64,000 bases of DNA. Origin: an uncultured Lentisphaeria bacterium (GTDB lineage: Bacteria > Verrucomicrobiota > Lentisphaeria > Victivallales > UBA1829). The notes under the pieces were generated by a model. The model was not told where the DNA came from. It searched no databases and worked only from the letters and a program-made list of their open reading frames with translations. Shown piece by piece: positions 299-6,827 of this stretch (positions are counted from its first letter, which is position 1; each line of letters starts with the position of its first letter). Both the position numbers and the translations under genes were made by a program. Location: contig CASDPB010000004.1 in assembly GCA_949282305.1 (NCBI GenBank), forward strand, positions 1 through 64,000. Reading direction: 5' to 3'.

Positions 299-574
299 TT
301 ATTCCTTCAGCTCCCGGAGAATCGCTTCAACATCGGTATAGCCTTTAATGTCCGGATCTTGAGCGATACGTTTCGCTTCTTTCATGGCGGCAAGCGTCTT
401 GGAATTAGGAATCATGTCAATCCATTCTGAAAGAGGTCTGCCTTCATGCCGGATAATCTGAATCAGGAAGATTTCAACAGCTTCCTCAAGAGAGACACCT
501 TCCGTTTTTATGTAACGTACGGCCTTTTGAACTAAAGCCTTACGAAGCTTAAGATCGGTAAATTCAGTGTTCAT
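299..574 (-). CDS. RelB/DinJ-family antitoxin, without an adjacent RelE/YafQ toxin
   Basis: The 91-residue protein has an N-terminal segment compatible with the ribbon-helix-helix of RelB/DinJ. Its C-terminal tail, with the patterns NSKTLAAMKEA and KGYTDVEAILRELKE, is typical of DinJ antitoxins that wrap a RelE/YafQ toxin. No RelE-like frame lies downstream (positions 298-1 on this strand) or upstream. The gene sits 22 bases after a PIN toxin gene on the same strand, so it may be the last gene of that operon. It could be an orphan antitoxin, a remnant, or a protein with a new partner. Confidence 0.75.
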   Translation of the reverse strand: MNTEFTDLKLRKALVQKAVRYIKTEGVSLEEAVEIFLIQIIRHEGRPLSEWIDMIPNSKTLAAMKEAKRIAQDPDIKGYTDVEAILRELKE

Positions 575-1359: not shown

Positions 1360-4053
1360 ATGCAATTACGACCTTATCAACAGGCTGCGGTTGACGCTGT
1401 ATATGAACACCTCCGCAGCAAAGAAACAAACCCGTGCGTGGTAATCCCATGCGGTTGCGGCAAATCGCTGGTTCTCGCTCAGATCGCAAAAGATGCCGTT
1501 GAAAAATGGAATGGTCGGGTGCTGCTCCTCGCCCATGTCAAGGAGCTTCTTGAGCAGAATGCCGACAAGATCCGCAAGCTCTGTCCGGAATTGAAGATCG
1601 GCATCTATTCCGCCGGACTCAGGAGCCGCGACACCACGGAGCAGGTCATTGTCGCCGGAATTCAAAGCATGTACAACAAGGCCTGCGAGCTGGACGCCTT
1701 TGACCTTGTCATCGTGGATGAAGCACACCTGATCAGTAGCGAAGGGGACGGCATGTACCGAACCTTTCTGGCCGATATGAAGGTCATCAATCCACACGTC
1801 CGGGTGATCGGGCTGACGGCAACGCCCTTCCGCCTCAAGGGCGGGCTCATCTGCAAGCCGGAAAACATCCTGAACGAGATCTGCTATGAAGCTGGACTCA
1901 AGGAAATGATTCAGCAGGGGTATCTTTCCCCGCTGATTTCCAGGGCGGGCCGCGCGGAGGCGAATCTGGCAAACCTGCACATCCGTGGCGGCGAGTTCAT
2001 CAGCGACGAGGTCGCCGCAGCAATGGACAACGAGGCGCTGGTGACATCCGCCTGCAGGGAGATTGTGGAACTGACCCGTGACCGCAAGTCCGTGCTGATT
2101 TTCACCGCTTCGGTGGATCATTGCAAGCATGTTGCGGAAAAAATCCAGGCGTTTTCCGGCAAGGAGTGTGCGATCGTGACCGGTGAGACGTCGCCTGCCG
2201 AACGTGCTGAAATCATCGCCCGTTTCAGGGGGGAATTCATCCCGGCGGATCTTTTCGGAACACCGAAGCCCCCGCTCAAGTTTCTGACGAACGTCAACGT
2301 TTTGACTTGCGGCTTTGATGCTCCGAACACGGATTGCGTTGTGATGCTCCGCCCGACGAATTCGCCGGGGTTGCTGATTCAGTGCGCCGGACGCGGGACG
2401 CGGCTGTCACCAGACACCGGCAAGGTCAACTGTATTGCGGAGGGGACAATGATACTCACAGACAGAGGTCTTGTCCCCATCGAGAAGGTCACAACGCAAA
2501 TGAAGCTTTGGGACGGCATCGAATATGTGTCCCACGGCGGAATAGTATTCAAGGGAGAGCGAAATGTCATTGAATACGCAGGACTCACAGCCACCCCGGA
2601 TCACAAGGTCTGGAGTGAACATCACTGGCGAACGCACGGGGAGTGTGCTGCATCGGGAAAGCCAATATCCTGCACCGGAATTGAAGGGAAAGCAGTTCGG
2701 GAAGCTGACGGTTATTTCCGATACGGTTCGTGTCAGGGAGGAGTTACTGACAGCCAAACTGCATCTGCCATCAACGCGCAAACGCAAGTATGTGTTGGCA
2801 CAGTGTCAGTGCGGAACGGTTGCATGGAAATCCCTAGACAATCTCAAAAGAGGCACGGCTGGATGCCGTGTCTGCGACAAACCGCGCCGTGCCCCGAAAT
2901 GGCTGGTTGCCAGGATTGGAAACGCGAAGGACAGATGCGAGAATCCGAACAATCCCCGATATGCGGACTACGGGGGACGCGGAATCCGGTTCTGCTTCGA
3001 CGGCCCGACGGATATGGCACTCTGGCTGATGGAGCGCTTCGACTGCACGGACAGGAGGATGCAAATCGACAGGATAGACAACAACGGAAACTACGAGCCC
3101 GGCAATGTGAGGATGACGACTCCGAGCATCAATGGAATGAACAGGAGGCATCAGCTCAAAGTGAAAATGCTTCGGTTCAGGCAGGAACATCCGGAAGTGC
3201 GATATGCGGACGCAACGCTCTGCAATCTGATTTCACGGGGCTTCAGCAACGAGGAGATTGTCGAACGGTTCAACTCCCCGTCCTGCAAACCAAAAGGCGT
3301 GTATGGGACATTCTCAACGCCGGACCCCGCCATCGTTTCACAGCTAATGGTCTATTAGTTTCCAACTGTCTCGTTTTGGATTACGGGGGCAACATTCTGC
3401 GGCACGGTCCGCTCGATATGATCAAGGTCAAAGAGCCCGGCTCCGGGAAAGGCGGCGATGCTCCGGCGAAGAAGTGTCCGCAATGCCTCGCGCTCATCCA
3501 CGCCGGATATACGGCGTGTCCTGAATGCGGTTATGTGTTTCCGCCGAAGGAAGGCAATGACAAGATTACGCAGACGGCATCGTCCGCCGGTGTGATTTCC
3601 GGACAGGTGGATTATACCGATTACGAGGTGCTGGATGTGTATTACTGCGTTCACGAAAAACGGGGAGCCGATCCCGACGCCCCCAAAACCATGCGGGTGG
3701 ATTATCAGGTCGGCTTCAACGAGTTCAAATCGGAATGGGTCTGCCCGGAACATACCGGCTATGCCCGCGGCAAGTTCGAGAAATGGTGGAACGAACGCGC
3801 CGCGCTCGGCTGCCCGATGCCGAGGAGCGCGCGGGAAGCCGTTTCGCTGGCCAACGAGGGGCTTCTGGCGGCTCCCGAATCAATCACCGTTAAAACGATC
3901 GCGGGAGAACGTTTCGAACGGATTACCGGCTGGCGTTTAAAAGAACGCCCGGTCATGCGCGAACCGGGAGAAGACCTGGAAGCGGGCGAAACGTGGACAT
4001 CCCCCGCACCGCCTGACGATCTTGAAGACGATATCCCTGTGATTTTTCTTTAG
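1360..4053 (+). CDS. DEAD/DEAH-box helicase (superfamily 2, phage/island type) containing an intein
   Basis: The 897-residue precursor starts at ATG 1360, after AGAAGAGAAG at 1341-1350; an upstream in-frame TTG would run through the toxin-antitoxin promoter. Helicase motifs are clear: Walker A PCGCGKS (residues 30-36), DEAH (120-123), TAT (153-155), a second RecA-like domain with IFTASVD and VLTCGFDAP, and arginine-finger motif VI QCAGRGTRL (from 341). After motif VI the protein is interrupted by a 312-residue intein (358-669); the extein resumes with CLVLDYGGN. A zinc ribbon CPQC/CPEC lies at 706-723. Mature length would be about 585 residues. The family unwinds DNA in phage or plasmid replication or repair. 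Base composition drops sharply right after its stop codon. Confidence 0.9.
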   Translation: MQLRPYQQAAVDAVYEHLRSKETNPCVVIPCGCGKSLVLAQIAKDAVEKWNGRVLLLAHVKELLEQNADKIRKLCPELKIGIYSAGLRSRDTTEQVIVAGIQSMYNKACELDAFDLVIVDEAHLISSEGDGMYRTFLADMKVINPHVRVIGLTATPFRLKGGLICKPENILNEICYEAGLKEMIQQGYLSPLISRAGRAEANLANLHIRGGEFISDEVAAAMDNEALVTSACREIVELTRDRKSVLIFTASVDHCKHVAEKIQAFSGKECAIVTGETSPAERAEIIARFRGEFIPADLFGTPKPPLKFLTNVNVLTCGFDAPNTDCVVMLRPTNSPGLLIQCAGRGTRLSPDTGKVNCIAEGTMILTDRGLVPIEKVTTQMKLWDGIEYVSHGGIVFKGERNVIEYAGLTATPDHKVWSEHHWRTHGECAASGKPISCTGIEGKAVREADGYFRYGSCQGGVTDSQTASAINAQTQVCVGTVSVRNGCMEIPRQSQKRHGWMPCLRQTAPCPEMAGCQDWKREGQMRESEQSPICGLRGTRNPVLLRRPDGYGTLADGALRLHGQEDANRQDRQQRKLRARQCEDDDSEHQWNEQEASAQSENASVQAGTSGSAICGRNALQSDFTGLQQRGDCRTVQLPVLQTKRRVWDILNAGPRHRFTANGLLVSNCLVLDYGGNILRHGPLDMIKVKEPGSGKGGDAPAKKCPQCLALIHAGYTACPECGYVFPPKEGNDKITQTASSAGVISGQVDYTDYEVLDVYYCVHEKRGADPDAPKTMRVDYQVGFNEFKSEWVCPEHTGYARGKFEKWWNERAALGCPMPRSAREAVSLANEGLLAAPESITVKTIAGERFERITGWRLKERPVMREPGEDLEAGETWTSPAPPDDLEDDIPVIFL
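2431..3366 (+). mobile_element. intein inserted after helicase motif VI
   Basis: The helicase frame carries a complete set of protein-splicing blocks. Block A starts at Cys (TGT 2431-2433) with CIAEGTMILTDRGLVPIEKV. Block B is LTATPDHKVW. Blocks F and G are VWDILNAGPRHRF and NGLLVSN, ending in Asn (AAC 3364-3366) and followed by the +1 Cys (TGT 3367-3369). The penultimate residue is Ser rather than the usual His. Between blocks B and F the helicase frame reads as about 200 residues of Gln/Arg/Glu/Asp-rich, low-complexity sequence with no LAGLIDADG or HNH domain. An HNH endonuclease is instead encoded in the +1 frame here. Joined exteins would read GKVN-CLVLDYGGN, which fits uninterrupted helicases. 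Confidence 0.92.
2564..3358 (+). CDS. HNH/AP2-type homing endonuclease nested in another frame inside the intein
   Basis: The 264-residue protein is read in the +1 frame relative to the helicase. It has its own ribosome binding site AGGGAG (2552-2557), 6 bases before ATG 2564. The architecture matches free-standing phage HNH homing endonucleases: GKQFGKLTV (42-50), a zinc-finger-like CQCG...CRVC (81-104), YGGRGI (136-141) and the catalytic-region pattern DRIDNNGNYEPGN (169-181), then NRR. Its stop (3356-3358) lies 5 bases before the last intein codon. It is expected to cut an intein-less helicase allele and so promote homing. The family assignment is firm; cutting activity and target are inferred from location. 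Confidence 0.9.
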   Translation: MSLNTQDSQPPRITRSGVNITGERTGSVLHRESQYPAPELKGKQFGKLTVISDTVRVREELLTAKLHLPSTRKRKYVLAQCQCGTVAWKSLDNLKRGTAGCRVCDKPRRAPKWLVARIGNAKDRCENPNNPRYADYGGRGIRFCFDGPTDMALWLMERFDCTDRRMQIDRIDNNGNYEPGNVRMTTPSINGMNRRHQLKVKMLRFRQEHPEVRYADATLCNLISRGFSNEEIVERFNSPSCKPKGVYGTFSTPDPAIVSQLMVY

Positions 4054-4058
4054 AAAAG

Positions 4059-4508
4059 TTGTTGAAACACGGTGATGAGTTTAAGGTGTGTAATTTTGAA
4101 GGGATTCAAATAGGTGTAATGATCTGTTATGATCGGGAATTTCCAGAAAGCGCGCGCGTTCTAATGCTGAAAGGTGCGGAAATTATTTTAGTTCCCAATG
4201 CCTGCGATATGAACTCAATTAGAATCAATCAGCTTAATACAAGGGCTTTTGAAAATATGGTTGGGATAGCAATGGCAAACTACCCCGGGAAAGGCTGGGG
4301 AGGTTCCTGTGCTTTTTCCCCAGTGGTATTTGATGAAAAGGGAAGCTGCAAGGACAATACGCTTGTAAAAGCGAATGATATTTTGGAAGATATTTTGATT
4401 GCAGAGTTCAATATGGAACGCCTCAGAATATATCGGGAACAAGAAACTTGGGGGAATGCCTATCGAAAGCCAATGGCCTATAAGGACTTGGTAAATCTTG
4501 AAGCTTAA
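4059..4508 (+). pseudogene. 5'-truncated carbon-nitrogen hydrolase (nitrilase superfamily)
   Basis: The frame encodes the C-terminal half of a nitrilase-type amidohydrolase. The catalytic Cys motif MICYDREFPES, the VPNA strand and the conserved C-terminal strands (FSPVVFDEKG, LIAEFNMERL) are present. The first half with the catalytic Glu and Lys is missing. Family members are about 260-300 residues, and only 149 codons are open here from a TTG. The homology begins immediately after the helicase stop codon (4053), so the junction cuts straight into the nitrilase. Codon use is AT-rich, unlike the window average. It is very unlikely to be active. Confidence 0.8.
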
Positions 4509-4651
4509 AAATTCACCTAAAATAAACAAGAGGTTCCATTTACACTTTCAACCTACCCTTTCGTCCAAGTCAGTTTGCGTTGGCTGTATTAGCCTGTCAT
4601 ATTTGCAATCTGTAATCACTCTGAAACCAATATGCACAGAATATCATTCTA

Positions 4652-5404
4652 TCATATACTGCACTCGTAAATGAACATTTCACATCTATCATTGACTGCA
4701 ATTTCTTTCCGGTAACTGGAATATGTAGAAATACTCTTAAATCCACACTCCTTTAAATATTTTTCCATTTCTCCATAGCGGTACAAATGAGTTTGAAAAT
4801 CCATGTTTTCGCTTTGCAATAATTCAGTTCCATTGTAAAGTTCGTAAATGGATGGCGAAAACTGCGTCTGGCTGTTTTCATCGTAGTGATTTTTTGTTTT
4901 CAGAATTAACTCATAGCCCTCTTTGGTTTTCACAGAAACTTTTACTTTGTATTCTCCGTCTTCAGTACACCGATCAAAAATAGTGTCAACAGCAAATACG
5001 TATTTTCCTTCAGGAGCCAAGAATTCTTTCATTTTTCGCAAAATATCTTTGCACATATTCATGTCTGTAAACAATGACATAGATCCGGAGGGAATAAAAA
5101 TATAATCAAACTTTTCCTGTACGGCATAGTTGATGATATCTGCCCGTATAACCTTTGCGTCCGGAATTTTCTGTCTTAATTTTTCCAGCATTTCTTCTGA
5201 TAAATCCATCCCACTTATGTCAAAACCTCGCGTAGAAAAAGGGACAAGAAAACGCCCGCTACCACATAGAGGCTCTAAAATTCGCTCCCCTTTTTTGGCA
5301 TAAGAAAGATAAAAGTCCAATTCATCTTGCGGAGCTTGTTTATGTAAAATCTCATACATTTCGGTACATAAACAACCATAATAGTTTTGTTTCATTTTAT
5401 CCAT
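4652..5404 (-). CDS. class I SAM-dependent methyltransferase, probably horizontally acquired
   Basis: The 250-residue protein has methyltransferase motif I ILEPLCGSGRFLVPF with GFDISGMDLSEEML after it. Further motifs follow: the acidic IRADIINY, then FDYIFIPSGS and LRKMKEFLAPEGKYVF. This is the Methyltransf_25-like fold for small molecules or unknown substrates. The DNA is strongly AT-rich compared with the flanking 50-55% GC genes, and the codon use recalls Clostridia. It stands alone, converging with the truncated nitrilase. The ATG three codons further in is an alternative start; neither has a good ribosome binding site. The substrate cannot be told. Confidence 0.8.
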   Translation of the reverse strand: MDKMKQNYYGCLCTEMYEILHKQAPQDELDFYLSYAKKGERILEPLCGSGRFLVPFSTRGFDISGMDLSEEMLEKLRQKIPDAKVIRADIINYAVQEKFDYIFIPSGSMSLFTDMNMCKDILRKMKEFLAPEGKYVFAVDTIFDRCTEDGEYKVKVSVKTKEGYELILKTKNHYDENSQTQFSPSIYELYNGTELLQSENMDFQTHLYRYGEMEKYLKECGFKSISTYSSYRKEIAVNDRCEMFIYECSI

Positions 5405-6083
5405 GTAGGTATTCTTTGAATTTGTTTTAGGTTCTACAAAATAAATAGCAGAATCATCTCAATATTTTTATTGGATGTTTTGCGTACAAAAGCGCATTAC
5501 TATATCACGTTGTTCAGCAATTGCAAATCTTGAGTTTGTCTAGGAACTGATATAACTAAACCGAATGAATCCGCCAGGTGTAGTAAAAGTTAACATGATG
5601 CTGAATGCCGAATTTGAACTGTTGCCAACAGGAACATTCTTTGATTTTGATAATTTTAAAGTCGTTGTAATACTAAGAACAGGATAAAGGTCGTTTGTTC
5701 TGAAAAGCGAATTTCGCAAAAACCGAAAAATTCTCTGAGTCCAAAAGACGTTGTTATGAATTAGGCAAATAAGGTGACCGACCTTTTGATTTTGTGAACA
5801 CATGTCCTTTGCAAGCATATTTTACTTTATTCGTTGATTACCAACATATTACTTTAATAAAAGATTCCCAAATGAATGTATGACAGAAAAAAATTGACGA
5901 TCAAAGGTCGGTTTTCCGACGTGTGTTTCCGTCAAAAAATGCTCTCCAGACCAAAAGACCGGTCTTTTACTCCCCCGGAGAATTTACCGGGAGAAGGTCT
6001 GAAACACACCTTCATAAGAGAAAAGTGGAGATTCTCCGCTTTCGGGCAAAACGCGAGTTGAGCTCAAATTTACCCCCGAAACG
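5405..6083. other. AT-rich to mixed intergenic stretch with palindromes, no convincing gene
   Basis: A 92-codon open frame on the minus strand (5540-5818) has no recognisable motif or ribosome binding site and is not accepted. From about 5900 composition rises and several hairpins appear: GTCGG-TTTT-CCGAC (5907-5920), the perfect 16-bp palindrome AAAAGACCGGTCTTTT (5953-5968) and a CTCCC...GGGAG pair at about 5970-5993. With the tRNA terminator at 6084-6109, which reuses the GACCGGTC core, this may be the scar of an insertion next to tRNA-Ala. Confidence 0.4.
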
Positions 6084-6109
6084 AAAAAACCGACCAGAAG
6101 ACCGGTCGG
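6084..6109 (-). terminator. Rho-independent terminator of tRNA-Ala
   Basis: On the minus strand CCGACC (6109-6104) and GGTCGG (6095-6090) pair around an 8-base loop and are followed by six T residues (complement of 6084-6089). It lies 16 bases after the tRNA CCA end. Confidence 0.7.
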
Positions 6110-6125
6110 CGGAGAATTTTGAAAA

Positions 6126-6202
6126 TGGTGGAGTATAGGAGACTTGAACTCCTGACCCCCACACTGCCAGTGTGGTGCTCTAGCCAACTGAGCTAATACC
6201 CC
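6126..6202 (-). tRNA. tRNA-Ala (anticodon GGC)
   Basis: The 77 bases fold as a full cloverleaf with encoded CCA (6128-6126). The acceptor arms GGGGTAT and ATACTCC pair with a G3-U70 wobble, the alanine identity element. The anticodon stem CCACA/TGTGG encloses CTGGCAG with anticodon GGC. The T-arm carries TTCAAGT. A Rho-independent terminator follows. Confidence 0.95.
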
Positions 6203-6395
6203 ATGAAAACCAGATGCGTAAATATAGACCGGAATTACGGAATGTCAAGCCGCCAAAGTGGAAAGTTCTCTATTTTTCAAGCATATTTTCCGGATGCCAT
6301 TTGAAAAAGTAAATGCACGGTCAGAAAAGAATGTCCGTAAGTTAAGTCTGACAAAGATGGATGGTGCATTGGAGGTGACTGGAAAACGGTCATAA

Positions 6396-6827
6396 GCATA
6401 TCCCTTCCGTAGCATCCTGATAATTTCTCCTGAGAGTCCGGAATGTGCTTTTCCCCGGGGGAGGCTTGCGTTTAGTCTGAGATTGCAGAAAGATACTGTC
6501 ATGGCGCACCTGAGCACCGTCGGATTCTCAAAAGCGAAAGCATATCCCTTCCGTAGCATCCTGATAATTTCTCCTGAGAGTCCGGAATGTGCTTTCCCCC
6601 GGGGGAGGCTTGCGTTTAGTCTGAGATTGCAGAAAGATACTGTCATGGCGCACCTGAGCTCCGTTGTATTCCAAAAAGCGAAAGCATATCCATTCCGCAG
6701 CATCCTGATAATTTCTCCTGAGAGTCCGGAATGTGCTTTCCCCCGGGGGAGGCGTGCGTTTAGTCTGAGATTGCAGAAAGGTACTGTCATGGCGCACCTG
6801 AGCACCGTCGGATTCTCAAAAGCGAAC
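6396..6827. repeat. three tandem 144-bp repeats
   Basis: Units begin at 6396, 6540 and 6684 with GCATATCC and are identical in length (144 bases), with only a handful of substitutions between them. Each contains the CCCCCGGGGG core and CTGATAATTTCTCCTGAGAG. Because 144 is 48 codons, long frames stay open on both strands (6245-6850 minus, 6483-6947 plus), but neither has a plausible start signal or recognisable domain. Unit 3 ends abruptly after GCGAA at 6826. It is probably a tandemly amplified intergenic element; CRISPR is excluded by unit length and by the absence of spacers. Confidence 0.9.

Follow-up and report, generated by a model that had tools for sequence, protein, structure and literature searches.

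A phage-type helicase intein with a putative homing endonuclease gene nested in its +1 reading frame

The DNA analyzed here (hereafter, the window) is a stretch of 64,000 nucleotides from an uncultured Lentisphaeria bacterium, and it contains a helicase gene with an intein whose linker is also open in the +1 frame, where it encodes an HNH-family protein. Our preferred reading, to which we give a probability of about 0.85, is that the element is a mobile intein in which the gene of a homing endonuclease is overprinted and that the helicase mRNA is read twice. The computed data show the anatomy, the conservation of both readings, the empty alleles, and a footprint at the insertion point, and they predict a Hint fold; splicing, internal initiation, the cleavage site, and homing are inferred. 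The helicase frame would give an 897-residue precursor, in which the first ∼100 and last ∼30 residues of the intein would fold as a Hint domain, excise the 312-residue intein, and join a 585-residue helicase, while the ∼180 residues between the Hint halves would be a structureless linker with the absence of stop codons as its sole requirement. An internal ribosome start at ATG 2564 would yield, in the +1 frame, a free 264-residue HNH-family endonuclease. This enzyme would cleave helicase alleles that lack the intein, directly behind motif VI, and the intein and the nuclease gene would be copied jointly during repair. The initial annotation of this DNA had proposed such an arrangement; its structural claims all hold, and its interpretation is supported.

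Anatomy of the intein and of the nested frame

The helicase frame is open throughout positions 1360-4053 (+ strand) and encodes 897 amino acids of an SF2, phage-type, RadD-like helicase (phrog_16, E = 2e-88). The intein spans helicase residues 358-669 and is inserted directly after motif VI, the junctions reading QCAGRGTRLSPDTGKVN / C...N / CLVLDYGGN. Cys1, block B, blocks F and G, the terminal Asn312 (3364-3366), and the +1 Cys, all named in the initial annotation, were confirmed (Table 1), and subtracting 312 from the 897 residues of the frame gives by arithmetic the spliced product of 585 residues that it had predicted. In a 45-sequence alignment of inteins, C1 of block A, T55 and H58 of block B, and D293, F303, and N312 of blocks F and G are invariant; the penultimate residue is Ser in the window versus His in most relatives. 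Pfam gave only weak Hint_2 matches, in 2 of 11 members.

Table 1. Positions in the window of the helicase, its intein, and the nested reading frame
Feature	Positions	Strand	Remark
N-extein of SF2 (RadD-like, phage) helicase	1360-2430	+	ends just past motif VI (QCAGRGTR)
5' flank, raised divergence versus near-identical empty alleles (co-conversion-like footprint)	2403-2430	+	3' counterpart 3367-3381
Intein, Cys1 ... Asn312, helicase frame	2431-3366	+	312 residues
Intein block A (CIAEGTMILTDRGLVPIEKV)	2431-2490	+	Cys1 = 2431-2433
Shine-Dalgarno-like AAGGGAG for nested ORF, within intein codons KGER	2551-2557	+	6 nt upstream of ATG
Nested HNH-family endonuclease ORF, +1 frame	2564-3358	+	264 aa; ATG 2564
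Intein block B (LTATPDHKVW)	2584-2613	+	TxxH = residues 55-58
CxC/CxxC zinc-finger-like pair of nested endonuclease, residues 81-104	2804-2875	+	
HNH-type core of nested endonuclease (MQIDRIDNNGNYEPGNVRMTT...N)	3056-3154	+	
Intein blocks F and G (RVWDILNAGPRHRFTANGLLVSN)	3298-3366	+	overlap conserved HNH C terminus KPKGVYGTFSTPDP
C-extein (CLVLDYGGN...)	3367-4053	+	+1 Cys = 3367-3369

An AlphaFold model of the intein, built with 45 sequences, has a pLDDT of 94-98 in its two outer parts (residues 1-80 and 291-312), whereas the values for residues 101-280 are mostly 36-58. Foldseek retrieved 17 PDB matches at E ≤ 0.001, all of them solved inteins, with the Mtu RecA mini-intein as the best; PDB sequence searches with the intein and HNH profiles returned nothing useful. 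The model thus predicts with confidence a Hint fold around a disordered linker. That the insert goes unspliced and is a tolerated out-of-frame HNH insertion seems very unlikely to us: such an element without splicing domains, the ShiLan element, has been described (PMC11855218), but in the window all intein blocks are conserved under constraint, the confidently predicted Hint fold matches solved inteins, and the insertion adjoins helicase motif VI. A group I or group II intron was rejected, as an Rfam search of the window at gathering score gave no intron match and both frames are open through the insert.

The nested reading frame proposed initially, running from ATG 2564 to 3358 with its own Shine-Dalgarno site, was confirmed. 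Its stop codon (TAG, 3356-3358) overlaps the coding sequence of block G and precedes the end of the intein by 8 nt, a spacing seen in 59 of the 116 +1 inteins described below. The HNH assignment made at the same time rests on PHROG profiles: the product matches two such families (phrog_374, E = 1.4e-30; phrog_3377, E = 1.7e-21), and the Pfam HNH models matched neither it nor its family. AlphaFold gives the HNH-frame protein a mean pLDDT of 85; since a fold search of this model against the PDB found no match, the identification as a nuclease rests on the sequence profiles. The cysteines C81, C83, C101, and C104 are invariant or nearly so in the family. HNH enzymes usually have a histidine as the first catalytic residue. 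In the core pattern found here (Asp169-Arg170 ... Asn181), Arg170 occupies that position and is invariant in the family, which calls for caution about nuclease activity.

Several features of the surrounding DNA are recorded here in their own right. Beside the helicase, at 597-1270 and 299-574 (- strand), lie a PIN-domain toxin gene, accompanied by one that resembles a DUF6364 antitoxin, and a second gene of the RelB/DUF6364-like kind. Directly after the helicase, positions 4059-4508 hold a fragment of a carbon-nitrogen hydrolase gene that lacks the N-terminal half and at which G+C drops from 0.58 to 0.35, likely the edge of a prophage remnant or a recombination junction. Farther on (6394-6826), a 144-nt unit occurs in three tandem copies, 96-97% identical, with open frames on both strands.

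Recurrence of the arrangement and selection in each frame

The initial annotation did not consider the arrangement a common one, a view that we correct, since in this intein family an out-of-frame HNH is the rule. Searches seeded with the intein and with the nuclease, in which all loci were classified, yielded 139 inteins distinct at 90% nucleotide clustering, with HNH in +1 in 116 (the window's included), in +2 in 6, in frame in 0, and with 17 mini-inteins; the numbers derive from a handful of pattern scans that started from the window's family and are not a frequency estimate for all inteins. In the genome collection alone, with every confirmed match kept, we counted 34 in +1, 15 mini-inteins, and 0 in frame. 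The window's own intein was present, among 100 related bacterial genomes, in its own genome only. Host genes of the family include DNA polymerase I (site ...KIAELA/CGYGG), several helicases, and others, in phages of many hosts. Named phages with +1 nesting are Streptococcus Javan113 and Javan255, Gardnerella AB1, Caulobacter GB2A, Shewanella SFCi1, and APSE-1, and +2 nesting occurs in Vibrio 97.13, EBPR siphovirus 2, and Pseudomonas MR14. One phage DNA polymerase (L017) carries two inteins (4001-4978 and 5531-6412), each with its own out-of-frame HNH ORF. The six +2 cases (L010, L012, L013, L217, L227, and L232), in three of which (L010, L012, and L013) the ORF begins earlier, inside the N block, probably have a separate origin. 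Among the annotated records examined, the nested ORF is annotated in APSE-1 only, and there only in its 3' part.

Could the doubly open frame be a sequencing or assembly frameshift, or an open frame by chance? Nothing beyond the unusual layout speaks for this, and we regard the probability as negligible. Holding the HNH protein fixed and resampling synonymous codons from the helicase codon usage, we expected the intein frame to contain a mean of 12.0 stops, and not one of 2,000 draws left it open, i.e., a chance of less than 1 in 2,000. Free-standing HNH homologues (n = 19) have 10.9 stops per 100 codons in the corresponding frame, and none of the 19 is open. In all, 116 distinct inteins show the same frame relation. 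They come from independent assemblies, isolate genomes among them, and keep HNH out of the helicase frame, contrary to a frameshift error, and no relative has the same HNH fused in frame. For L188, the sole locus that seems to carry it in frame, the best explanation is a single-nucleotide frameshift, which throws block F/G out of frame as well. Sequencing error and a chance ORF were rejected on the recurrence in relatives, the resampling, and the free-standing homologues, and the relatives in many phages confirm the nested arrangement as real, conserved, and not accidental.

The comparison of synonymous and nonsynonymous change in each frame of homologous inteins, a check proposed at the outset, was made with an overlap-aware omega, in which substitutions are classed by their effect in both frames. 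It covers 21 independent pairs of relatives, mostly DNA-polymerase inteins; the window, which lacks a close relative, is not among them. In the middle region, omega was 0.12 (0.09-0.14) in the HNH frame versus 0.99 (0.87-1.13) in the intein frame, and in the N overlap it was 0.28 for HNH and 0.19 for the intein. The N block ahead of the HNH start served as a control and gave 0.15 for the intein and 0.66 for the HNH frame, the latter revealing a bias of the method, as no HNH is read there. In the C block, omega was 0.32 for the intein and 0.52 (0.29-1.01) for HNH, the last value not being clearly below the 0.66 of the control. By these estimates, the middle is constrained as HNH and neutral as intein, and the splicing blocks stay constrained as intein. 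The initial description of the linker as shaped only to avoid stops is thereby borne out, the low pLDDT of that region agreeing with its neutral intein-frame omega.

For the window itself, identity by frame to three relatives (L091, L095, and L015) was used in place of omega. Against the nearest, L091, the middle is 61% identical as HNH and 33% as intein, and the splicing blocks read as intein are 65% (block N) and 89% (block C) identical. Over 105 elements, the distances of the intein blocks and of HNH are correlated (Mantel r = 0.40; 0 of 2,000 permutations), which shows that the two move together, though not strictly.

One could still argue that the HNH ORF is a decayed relic and that the element is now a mini-intein with a long neutral spacer. 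The neutral evolution of the intein-frame middle fits this, the mini-intein relatives show that HNH can be lost, and the window lacks a close relative with which the point could be tested directly. We nonetheless consider a relic improbable, given the HNH-frame omega of 0.12 in relatives, the unbroken ORF of the window in which every invariant residue of the family is kept, and an insertion that looks recent, as discussed below.

Nesting is not restricted to HNH. A paralogous helicase on contig C105 of the same genome (L301) contains two further inteins, one located at motif I and one at the DEAH box. The first (404-1441, at the Walker A motif) is an ordinary in-frame LAGLIDADG intein, and the second (1709-2722, 338 residues) carries in its +1 frame an ORF (1866-2732) with CxxC fingers and a weak match to the restriction-enzyme-like DUF559/MTES_1575. 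With the protein of this ORF fixed, the intein frame was expected to contain 7.8 stops, and none of the 2,000 draws left it open. The same +1 nesting occurs in another genome (G045, L304), in a viral contig (L307), and at the DEAH site of the annotated helicases of Vibrio phage CP-T1, Corynebacterium phage phi673, and Pseudomonas phage MR14. Taken with the +1 and +2 HNH cases, out-of-frame nesting has therefore arisen with at least two families of nuclease and in two relations between the frames. As a side observation, one helicase gene family offers three intein sites with three nuclease types.

Production of the nuclease and mobility of the element

Among the 116 +1 inteins, 73 have an ATG at intein nucleotide +145, versus 41 expected under synonymous resampling for the same peptide, and this ATG mostly follows a strong Shine-Dalgarno sequence, one embedded in the stretch that encodes KGxREV. 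In the window, position +145 reads ACG, and the ATG lies 12 nt farther upstream, preceded by an AAGGGAG of its own. Because mini-inteins without HNH also keep the ATG (16 of 17) and the Shine-Dalgarno sequence, the start signal is partly ancestral or driven by the peptide; we therefore regard it as supporting, not decisive, and the strength of the Shine-Dalgarno sequence by itself as no more than suggestive. Free translation of the nuclease would follow from the conserved start. Alternatively, a programmed ribosomal frameshift near block B, stimulated by the Shine-Dalgarno-like sequence, might fuse the N-terminal part of the helicase and intein to HNH. The motif does lie upstream of the frame change, and in several relatives the open +1 frame begins shortly before it (at 2546 in the window). 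Such a fusion would, however, be devoid of block F/G, start codons cluster at a single position more than the peptide demands, and the window, having lost the +145 codon, has an ATG with its own Shine-Dalgarno sequence close by. Frameshifting is thus unlikely in our view, and internal initiation remains the reading that we prefer.

The search for intein-free helicase alleles, another check proposed initially, succeeded: helicases without the window's intein, with 93-96% nucleotide identity to its flanks, exist on C105 of the same genome, G000 (L301), as well as in a different genome of the order (L302 and L303), and a more distant helicase (L305) is also empty at the site. All four are contiguous across the insertion site. 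Between the window and L303, 19 of the 51 mismatches over about 1,200 nt lie ≤60 nt from the insertion point, and the raised divergence falls mostly within about 30 nt on its 5' side and 15 nt on its 3' side (Table 1). A footprint of this kind would be the expected trace of co-conversion during homing, and, with the co-inheritance of blocks and HNH, it points to homing as one unit. That near-identical empty alleles and the flank footprint still survive makes the insertion look recent.

Significance and relation to known systems

In standard models of inteins, the endonuclease is a domain fused in frame. Searches for homologous inteins and HNH proteins, as the initial annotation had suggested, found relatives that have both and keep the out-of-frame layout. 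We lean toward the view, with appreciable doubt, that overprinted inteins make up an overlooked class, general and long-lived, in which a ribosome start inside the splicing domain would give a free nuclease from the +1 (or +2) frame and the host-frame middle would be neutral. The class would have arisen more than once with different nucleases (HNH, and DUF559/MTES_1575-like, Vsr-type in the DEAH-site helicase inteins), largely replacing in-frame fusion in these phage inteins. In the window, a single stretch of DNA would specify both a protein that splices and a nuclease distinct from it, and constraint shifts between frames along the element, which offers a clean natural system for measuring selection on overlapping genes. 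A long neutral peptide could ride inside a working protein because splicing removes it. By implication, many phage polymerase and helicase inteins read as having no endonuclease, or an unknown one, may carry one missed by annotation.

The closest precedent that we found among the open-access articles searched is the ShiLan element, an out-of-frame HNH in a phage DNA methylase that has no splicing blocks or Hint fold and was judged not to be an intein (PMC11855218, Genes 2025). As in the window, HNH lies out of frame in an insertion that leaves the host frame open, and its spread is disjunct and homing-like, but the host frame of the window is a well-formed intein. In a sentence on overlapping reading frames, the same article refers to a preprint of 2025 about actinophage inteins of "non-canonical architecture," which, judging by its title and this citation, may report out-of-frame endonucleases in inteins. 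There is a real chance that the architecture has already been named elsewhere; even so, the breadth of the family, the frame-by-frame selection, and the second nuclease family would still add to it. Single cases are already in the records: the intein of the APSE-1 DNA polymerase P45 (NC_000935) has an HNH-type ORF (APSE-1_46) nested in +1, like the window, although its insertion site differs, its HNH is distant, and the annotated ORF is the 3' part only. Among the open-access articles searched, we found no description of this nested ORF as an intein architecture.

Classical inteins, e.g., those with LAGLIDADG, share with the window the Hint splicing blocks and an endonuclease between blocks B and F, but their nuclease is fused in frame, as at motif I of the paralogous helicase. 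Split-intein loci reported by Dassa et al. (2009), in which a free-standing gene for a Vsr-like endonuclease is said to separate the two halves, resemble our reading of the window in that the endonuclease is a separate protein. In those loci the host gene is broken in two, whereas in the window the host frame and the nuclease overlap on an uninterrupted stretch.
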